Position numbers and translations under genes: made by a program. From the NCBI RefSeq assembly GCF_009906795.1, contig NZ_JAAALN010000004.1:1-64000 (forward strand): a DNA stretch of 64,000 nucleotides, written 5' to 3'. Numbering within the stretch: the stretch's first letter is position 1; every line of letters begins with the position of its first letter. This DNA is from Kineococcus siccus. GTDB lineage: Bacteria; Actinomycetota; Actinomycetes; Actinomycetales; Kineococcaceae. Under the pieces are notes generated by a model that saw only the letters and a list, made by a program, of their open reading frames with translations, searched no databases and was not told the DNA's origin. Below are positions 35,547 through 38,923 of the stretch, one piece after another.

Positions 35547-36000
35547 TCCAACACTCTGCCACCGAGCCGACCGGCTGAAGGGTCGCCGAGAGCGCAGCAG
35601 TGCGAGACCCCAGCGCCCACCACAGCACCACACGAGCAGCTCTCACCCCAGCCACCGCTGAGCAGCCCGCCGCCAGCGGTGACGACGTCGACGAGCGAGT
35701 CTGTTGTCGCGCCAAGCTAGAGATCACATCGCAGACGTCCTCAGCGAAGTCCTGATCGTGACCTGGCCACGGATCGAGGACCTACCTGGCGATGACGTCG
35801 GCGCCGCACCTGGCTCTGCACGCCTGCCCGCAACACTCTGGCCAACCATCACTTCAGCCGCCGCGCCGACAACCCGACCGCGCGTGACCTGCCCGGTGGG
35901 TGTTGTCGCGGTCACGTCGATCTGCGTGACGTCGACAAGCACGCCCGAACCCGACCGCAGGGAAGCCAACGCGCGTGCCCGGGCCTGTCACCATCCCCTT
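35547..36000. other. Gene-poor stretch between PH and GNAT genes
   Basis: About 450 nt between divergent genes. No convincing gene seen; it should hold the two promoters. Confidence 0.45.
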
Positions 36001-36474
36001 GTGCCTTTCCCCCACACCCCCACGAGCACCTTGCAGCGCCGTGTGCGGATCGTTCACCTGACCGGACCCACCTTCGACGCCCTGGCTGCCGGCGACCTGT
36101 CCACGGCCAACACCACCAGCCCCGTGCCGATGAGCGACTACTTCGCTGGCCTGGACTGGCGCAGCGTGTGGCGCATGCGCACCGAGCAGGTCCGCCAGGA
36201 CCCCGACGACGCCGCCTGGGTCACCGGCGTCATCTGGGATGACGACCGACAGCTCGCCGTGGGCCGCGCCGGCTACCACGGCCCACCGGACGCCGAAGGC
36301 ATGGTGGAGATCGGTTACGCCGTCGACCCCGCCCACCGCCGCCGCGGCTATGCCCGCGCCGCACTGGAGGCACTGCTGCAACGCGCCCGCGATGAAGTGG
36401 CCGTCCGCACGATCCGGGTCACCATCAGCCCCGACAACACCGCTTCCTACGCCCTAGCCCGGATCTTCCAGTAA
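36001..36474 (+). pseudogene. GNAT acetyltransferase, 5' fragment split by an IS element
   Basis: 157 residues up to the insertion, containing most of a GNAT fold: VGRAGYHGPPDAEGMVEIGYAVDP and the acetyl-CoA loop HRRRGYARAALEALL. It ends in NTASYALARIFQ followed by a TAA formed by the gene's TA and the first base of the IS. The missing C-terminal strand is found on the far side of the element at 38200-38284 in the right frame; joined across one CCAGTA copy, the gene is 558 nt and 185 codons. The native enzyme would acetylate an unknown substrate; the split protein is probably inactive. Confidence 0.85.
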
Positions 36475-38193
36475 CCCCTCGTCACTGAGGGCGCCGAACG
36501 CACGGAAGTGCCTGTCTCGCATGGGATCATGGGCTTGTCTAAGGTCCGTATCCGCCACACGTGAGAGGCACTCCGCAGGTGCACAGTACAAGACCGTCCG
36601 TCGCCTCGACCAGCCAGCTGCCGAGGGTTACCGTGGCCACGGGTGGGGTCGGGGTCGTCTCCCACGCCGGGTCACGGCTGCTGGCCGACGTGGCCGCGGT
36701 GACCGGTCTGAGTGGCGGCTTCAGTGACGTCCTGGCCGAGACCCGGACCCGGCGGGCCGGTCACGACCCGGGCCGGGTCCTGAGCGATCTCGCGGTCCTG
36801 CTCGCCGAGGGCGGGGAAGCGATCAGCGACCTCGCGGTCCTGCGTCAGCAGCCGCAGCTGTTCGGGGCGGTGGCCTCGACCCCCACGGCGTGGCGGGTCC
36901 TGGACTCCATCGGGTCCGCCCGCCTCGCCGGCCTGCGGACGGCGCGGGCCGCCGCGCGGGAGCGGGCCTGGTTGGCGCGGGCCGAGCTGGGCCGGCACCT
37001 GCCCGTCATGCGCGCTGGAGGCCGGGAGTGGGCAGGGCTGGTGATCGACCTCGACGCGACCCTGGTGACGGCACACTCGGAGAAGGAGGGTGCGGCGGCC
37101 ACGTTCAAGGGCGGCTTCGGCTACCACCCGTTGCTGGCGTTTCTGGATAACACCAACGAGGCCCTGGCCGGAGTCCTGCGTGCGGGCAACGCCGGTTCGA
37201 ACACCACCGCCGACCACATCGAGGTCAGCGACCTCGCGCTCGCGCAGATCCCCGACGACATCCGGTACGGCACCCCGATCCTGATCCGTGCGGACGGGGC
37301 CGGCGCCACGAAGGGTTGGTTGCAGCACCTGCACGTCCTGCGCGGCAACGACAACCGCACCGGACTCGTTACCGGGTTGGATGTGGAGTTCTCCGTCGGG
37401 TTCACCATGACCGCTGCCGTTCAAGACGCCATCCGGGCCCTGCCCAAGACGGCGTGGGTGCCGGCCGTGCAGGTCGACGGATCGCTGCGCGAGGGAGCGG
37501 ACGTCGCCGAGCTCACCGGGCTGCTGCCGGAGCTGACCGCGTCCGGCTGGCCACCCGGGATGCGAGTCCTGGTCCGTCGAGAGCGACCGCACCCGGGCGC
37601 GCAGCTGACCTTCACCGATGTCGACGGGTGGCGGTTCCAGACCTTCGCCACCAGCACGGCGGTGGGGCAGCTCGCGCAGCTCGAAGCCCGTCACCGCGCC
37701 CATGCGAGGGTTGAAGACCGCATCCGCACCGGCAAGGACACCGGCTTCGGCCGGTTCCCGTCGCGGATGTTCGCGATCAACGCGGCCTGGTTGGAGTTGG
37801 CCCTGGCCGGGATCGACCTGCTCGCCTGGACCCAGACGATGCTCCTGGACGGTGACCTCGCCATCTGCGAACCGAAGGCGTTGCGTTACCGGCTGCTGCA
37901 CACCGCTGCCCGCATCACCCGCAACGGGCGACGGGCGGTCGTGAAGATCGCCGCCGGCTGGCCCTGGGCGCGAGACCTCGTCGCCGCGTTCACCCGCCTT
38001 GCGCTGATCCCGCCACCGCTGCGGACCTGACCCAGGCGAGCAGACGACCACCCTCATCAGGACCCGCAGTGGACACCCCGGATGCGACGCCGGCTCCGCC
38101 GGCGACCCCACCCAGCCGGTCCAACCCGGGGGCCGGGGAGCCCACCCCTCAGACCATGATCAAAGCCGTTGGTGAAACGCCAGGGCTAGTGGT
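36474..38193 (+). mobile_element. IS1380-family insertion sequence with 6-bp target duplication
   Basis: 1720 bp bounded by CCAGTA at 36468-36473 and 38194-38199. The ends are imperfect inverted repeats, ACCCCTCGTC against ACCACTAGCC. It holds one transposase gene. Insertion was into a GNAT gene whose two halves still join in frame, so it is recent. Confidence 0.85.
36579..38030 (+). CDS. IS1380-family transposase
   Basis: 483 residues. The DDE core includes GLVIDLDATLVTAHSEKEG (first Asp), PILIRADGAGATKGWLQHL (second Asp) and, at the C-terminus, a Glu-containing stretch typical of IS1380 (FGRFPSRMFAINAAWLELAL). The length and sequence style are right for a complete transposase. GTG at 36579 has GAGAGG about 10 nt upstream; GTG at 36561 is an alternative. 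It looks intact, so the element may still be active. Confidence 0.9.
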   Translation: MHSTRPSVASTSQLPRVTVATGGVGVVSHAGSRLLADVAAVTGLSGGFSDVLAETRTRRAGHDPGRVLSDLAVLLAEGGEAISDLAVLRQQPQLFGAVASTPTAWRVLDSIGSARLAGLRTARAAARERAWLARAELGRHLPVMRAGGREWAGLVIDLDATLVTAHSEKEGAAATFKGGFGYHPLLAFLDNTNEALAGVLRAGNAGSNTTADHIEVSDLALAQIPDDIRYGTPILIRADGAGATKGWLQHLHVLRGNDNRTGLVTGLDVEFSVGFTMTAAVQDAIRALPKTAWVPAVQVDGSLREGADVAELTGLLPELTASGWPPGMRVLVRRERPHPGAQLTFTDVDGWRFQTFATSTAVGQLAQLEARHRAHARVEDRIRTGKDTGFGRFPSRMFAINAAWLELALAGIDLLAWTQTMLLDGDLAICEPKALRYRLLHTAARITRNGRRAVVKIAAGWPWARDLVAAFTRLALIPPPLRT

Positions 38194-38199
38194 CCAGTA

Positions 38200-38284
38200 C
38201 GGGTTCACCGCGGTCGGTGAGCAGTGGGATGACGAAGACGGCCTGGAGGTCATCTACGAGATCGGCGCCGACCCCGCCCGCTGA
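38200..38284 (+). pseudogene. GNAT acetyltransferase, 3' fragment
   Basis: The 85 nt after the right target repeat encode YGFTAVGEQWDDEDGLEVIY and eight more residues ending at TGA, the normal C-terminal strand of a GNAT domain. It completes the fragment at 36001-36474 without frameshift. No start of its own is likely. Confidence 0.85.
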
Positions 38285-38416
38285 CCACTGACTTCCAGCC
38301 CCACCTCTCAGCCGAGACACCACGCGCCCGCGACCGCAGCCGGTCGACGACTTCACGGTCTTGCCGATCCGCACGAGGTCCCGGGCCCGCTCCGAGACGC
38401 AGCTGAGAGCCGGGCA

Positions 38417-38923
38417 CTACTCAGGAGCGAGGTAGATCCGCACTCGGTGACGATGACCGTCTGGAGCCAGCCAGTCAGCATCGCGCCGGATCACCAACCG
38501 CCACCCCAACCGCTCGTACAGGTCGACCGCCGGCGCGCCGTCGTCAACCACGTCGAGCATGGGCTGCAGCCCCCGCTGCTCACTCCAGCGCTGAACCCGA
38601 GCAAGCAGCGCAGCACCGAGGCCGAGACCGCGGCCCCGCGCAGCCGGAGACACGAACAAGCGCGAGACGCTGACCAGACGCTCGACCGGGACCCCGGCCA
38701 GTGCAGCCACCACCGGGTCATCGACGTCACCCACCACGCAGACGTGTCCCAGCACGGTCTCGTCGTCGTCGAGCCCCACCCACGCAGCAGCCAGTCCGGC
38801 AGGACTGAGCCAGCCGGCGGGATCGTGCGGCCAGCACGTCGGGTACCCGTCGGCGACGTGCACCGCCTGGAGTGCGTCGACGCAAGTGGGCAAGTCCTCG
38901 GCGGCACGCTCACGAACGATCAC
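38417..38923 (-). CDS. GNAT family N-acetyltransferase
   Basis: 168 residues. Motif A is SRLFVSPAARGRGLGLGAALL (acetyl-CoA pyrophosphate loop R-G-x-G-x-G), followed by LDVVDDGAPAVDLYERLGWRLV. The N-terminus IVRERAAEDLPTCVDAL is the usual GNAT first strand and helix. It acetylates an unknown small molecule or peptide. GTG start; upstream there is only a 210-nt gap before an unknown gene on the other strand. Confidence 0.85.
   Translation of the reverse strand: MIVRERAAEDLPTCVDALQAVHVADGYPTCWPHDPAGWLSPAGLAAAWVGLDDDETVLGHVCVVGDVDDPVVAALAGVPVERLVSVSRLFVSPAARGRGLGLGAALLARVQRWSEQRGLQPMLDVVDDGAPAVDLYERLGWRLVIRRDADWLAPDGHRHRVRIYLAPE

Follow-up and report, generated by a model that had tools for sequence, protein, structure and literature searches.

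Members of the IS1380 family have target duplications in the range of 4-5 bp. The element described here resembles the family as modelled in NF033539: it has one DDE transposase ORF of ~480 aa, a length of ~1.7 kb, ends that begin with CC and finish with GG, and a short target duplication (4 bp, CTAG) that falls within this range. IS1247 of Paracoccus, in contrast, is listed with a 5-bp duplication (PMC3281130). Our literature search found no paper that links an IS1380 element to CTAG or to a duplication of 4 bp. In the window (the whole 64-kb stretch of DNA that was analysed, from a high-GC actinobacterium), we place the element at positions 36458-38185, as a 1728-bp insertion sequence of the IS1380 family that is flanked by a duplicated CTAG and lies inside a GNAT acetyltransferase gene. 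From sequence comparison, we would give this reading a probability of about 97%. Coordinates are collected in Table 1.

Table 1. Predicted features of the insertion sequence and of the GNAT gene that it splits (window positions)
Feature	Position	Strand	Basis or remark
GNAT acetyltransferase gene, 5′ part, ~138 codons; last bases are the left CTAG	36043..36457	+	Similarity to G010 and G003 alleles; Pfam on joined protein
Target duplication, left copy, CTAG	36454..36457	.	
IS1380-family insertion sequence, 1728 bp	36458..38185	+	Terminal profile from relatives; G005 left end; gapless empty-site alignment
Left terminal inverted repeat, CCCGGATCTTCCAGTAAC	36458..36475	+	Contains the left CCAGTA and the TAA stop at 36472-36474
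Subterminal inverted repeat, GGAAGTGCCT ... AGGCACTCC	~36505..36573 (to 36581)	+	Candidate control element, just 5′ of the transposase start
IS1380 transposase, 483 aa, start GTG 36579 (mechanical ORF start 36561)	36579..38030	+	NF033539, PF13701, DDE alignment
Right terminal inverted repeat, outer end inward, CCCTGGCGTTTCACCAAC	38168..38185	-	Best profile match in the window
Target duplication, right copy, CTAG	38186..38189	.	
GNAT gene, 3′ part to the TGA stop; contains its own TCCAGTA (38193-38199)	38190..38284	+	In-register alignment to intact alleles

The transposase is an uninterrupted ORF, as the first-pass annotation had proposed, scoring 277.8 bits against the IS1380 equivalog model of NCBIfam (NF033539; curated cut-off 180, E=1.2e-82) and 196 bits against Pfam PF13701. 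In alignment with its relatives the DDE residues are conserved, D(LDATLV), D(RADGAG) and E(VEDRIR), and stops are absent, while solved structures gave no match by sequence. The transposase match, together with uninterrupted alleles of the gene in relatives, upholds the earlier view that an IS1380-family insertion splits a GNAT gene.

An ungapped search of the window alone, for direct repeats of 3-7 bp combined with terminal inverted repeats, gave no single solution (the CTAG pair fell outside the top three 4-bp rows), and the ends therefore had to be taken from relatives. Transposase relatives turned up within the host genus, within the wider order and class, and also on plasmids of actinobacteria; a terminal profile of 14 positions was derived from 42 distinct ends among them. 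The two best scores of this profile in 128 kb (both strands) are at 36458 (10.7) and 38185 (13.2), each of which adjoins CTAG. By this family-profile test, terminal inverted repeats of IS1380 type, beginning with CC, are present at both positions. The element termini read CCCGG...CCAGGG, with junctions (marked by a slash) of ...CGCCCTAG/CCCGGATCTTCCAGTAACCCCTCG... on the left and ...GAAACGCCAGGG/CTAGTGGTCCAGTACGGG on the right, and the two repeats are imperfect, agreeing at 11 of their first 18 positions in ungapped comparison. Relatives with clear termini have ends that read roughly CC[TC]CGATNTTTCA. Exact 4-bp flanking repeats were seen in about 30 relatives, being CTAG at 14 loci, CTAA at 7, TTAG at 7 and a few others elsewhere, though some of these loci hold one and the same element inserted at separate places, which leaves the ends less independent than the locus number suggests. 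Automatic end-finding returned false pairs at two loci (L055 and L062), which were disregarded, and about a dozen loci were without a usable pair. In a Kribbella relative (L060) the ends are of the right type, their two flanks differ (CTAG and TTAG), and the transposase carries a stop or frameshift. Within the window CTAG occurs 9 times against 147 expected from base composition, two of the nine being the flanks of the element. This strong depletion makes CTAG a rare target across the window, and CTAG-like (YTAR) sites are rare there too; IS1380 relatives still use CTAG-like sites most often.

The left end can also be read from a related element in a genome of the same genus (G005). This fragment (L073, G005:C5, 2956-3405, minus strand of the locus) is a truncated IS1380 relative of which the left end and ~450 bp only are present, adjoining CTAG. 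It aligns to window positions 36454-36861 with 75% identity, and CTAG precedes this copy too (...GCCTGCTAG/CCCGGATCTTCCAGTAACCCTTCGTCACTGAGGG...). The first-pass annotation had begun the element at 36474 and had named copies with different ends as evidence against itself. The fragment is such a copy: its similarity starts at window position 36454, extending 16 bp beyond the 36474 border, through CCCGGATCTTCCAGTA, and ending at CTAG. Support from the G005 fragment is limited to the left end; the right end is placed from the family profile, the adjoining CTAG and the empty-site comparison. No second copy of the element was found in its own genome; as it is single-copy, there is no second identical copy to confirm both ends. 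A scan of contigs from one genome per species gave only three relatives, none identical.

Uninterrupted GNAT alleles, which had been suggested as a check, were found in five genomes (G010, G003, G009, G036 and G042), the best match being G010 with 82.8% amino acid identity. Homology with these alleles begins at GTG 36043 (36040 in G003) and in G010 reaches 36455; the gene so delimited encodes about 169 residues, in place of the 186 codons reported earlier. Joining the two parts through CTAG gives NTASYALVVQYGFTAVGEQWDDEDG, and the resulting protein aligns with all five alleles with no gap. The DNA alignment to G010 crosses the insertion site ungapped as well. Pfam found the acetyltransferase domains Acetyltransf_3 and Acetyltransf_1 (PF13302 and PF00583) above cut-off in the joined protein, the query being joined through CCAGTA, which differs from the CTAG-joined protein only around residues 139-143, outside the acetyl-CoA motif (RRRGYA) present in the joined alignment. 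One locus in the comparison (L025) was in the wrong orientation and uninformative. Elsewhere in the genome, no intact copy of this particular gene was found at E<=1e-12. Directly downstream, on the opposite strand, lies a second GNAT-domain gene (38417-38923, minus strand; PF00583). An ORF at 38069-38284 begins in the right part of the element and continues in the same frame into the 3′ part of the GNAT gene, giving a 71-aa fusion that is probably non-functional.

The 1728-bp element transposed into a CTAG site at codons 138-139 of the GNAT gene, in an allele that under CTAG joining would have read ...TACGCCCTAGTGGTCCAGTACGGG..., and the CTAG target was duplicated; in the mechanism that we propose, this would have occurred through DDE-type cutting and strand transfer with a 4-bp stagger. 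The interrupted frame enters the element for five codons, ARIFQ, of which the first spans the junction, and then meets a TAA. This stop, previously described as a product of the junction, falls entirely within the left inverted repeat of the element. The truncated protein retains the acetyl-CoA motif and is without its last C-terminal strands, a truncation that makes loss of function likely; the interrupted enzyme is probably inactive.

The ends given by the first-pass annotation, 36474-38193 (1720 bp, claimed to the single base) with a 6-bp CCAGTA duplication, call for comparison with these results. CCAGTA is indeed present on both sides (36468-36473 and 38194-38199) with the intact transposase between, and removing 36474-38193 with one CCAGTA leaves the GNAT frame open, as was stated; the uninterrupted allele would then read ...CTAGCCCGGATCTTCCAGTACGGG..., with the joining giving NTASYALARIFQYGF.... 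The left CCAGTA, however, belongs to the terminal repeat of the element and sits inside the conserved left end of the related G005 element, where its bases are also present, and the right copy is native to the gene (GTC CAG TAC GGG). On the terminal profile the ends so defined score -11.2 and -28.9, the duplications of relatives are 4 bp and not 6, and joining through CCAGTA inserts two codons that no close homologue has, seen as a two-residue gap against each of the five alleles and a lower score. Sharing of a 6-mer is moreover expected by chance in this window, where random 40-bp pairs have one in common in 51% of draws (a 7-mer in 21%). The CCAGTA repeat is a chance match and reflects no target duplication, and we assign the ends built on it a negligible probability. 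Both joinings keep the frame, since the difference between them is exactly 6 bp, and this misled the earlier reading.

For the element bounded by CTAG at 36458-38185, a recent insertion is plausible from sequence: the CTAG repeats are perfect, the transposase is intact, neither GNAT fragment contains a frameshift, and differences in codons between the gene and the G010 allele are of purifying type (dN 0.10, dS 0.41, dN/dS about 0.24), which together are compatible with a recent event. With the same ends, the insertion may instead be older and no longer mobile, in a gene that was already dispensable, as could be argued from the single copy of the element, from the lack of an identical copy in the collections searched and from several genomes of the same genus in which the GNAT gene was not found. 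The perfect CTAG repeats, the intact transposase with its DDE residues, the lack of frameshifts and the purifying-type dN/dS count against such an age, and we consider it unlikely.

Between the left end and the transposase gene lies a subterminal inverted repeat with arms AGTGCCT...AGGCACT and a loop of ~50 nt containing a conserved TTGTC, which ends right before the transposase GTG. Relatives of many genera have the same layout, their transposase start comes after the same motif as GTG 36579, and an in-register count finds compensatory changes in the arms at several positions. RNAalifold, run on the automatic subterminal alignment, did not recover the arms, probably through misalignment of some rows, and Rfam gave no match within 36000-38700. 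On read-in transcripts the repeat could fold into an RNA hairpin that covers the ribosome site; alternatively, it could be a paired protein-binding site. It is possible, if on balance somewhat improbable, that the IS1380 elements of actinobacteria are a group with CTAG-like (YTAR) sites as targets and with a conserved pre-transposase hairpin, which may mask the ribosome site on read-in transcripts and so keep the element quiet in an active gene such as GNAT.

The corrected ends keep a false 6-bp duplication out of the annotation or an IS database entry, and the locus illustrates how a chance repeat of 6-7 bp can pass for a target duplication when the joining also stays in frame. For actinobacterial IS1380 elements, two modest but testable points are the preference for CTAG and the conservation of the subterminal inverted repeat. 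The IS1380 family is already known, and the element itself is a new member: our search found no DNA close enough for an isoform, the nearest being the 450-bp G005 fragment at 75%, and the nearest relative cited at the protein level is from Kribbella sp., at about 72% amino acid identity. Compared with IS1380 elements of Streptomyces and Kitasatospora plasmids (e.g. L075-L082), whose ends read CCT(G/C)CGCGTTTC and whose duplications are CTAG, CTAA or TTAG, the element differs in terminal and internal DNA sequence, but its transposase is 58-63% identical in amino acids and the same subterminal inverted repeat stands before the transposase start.
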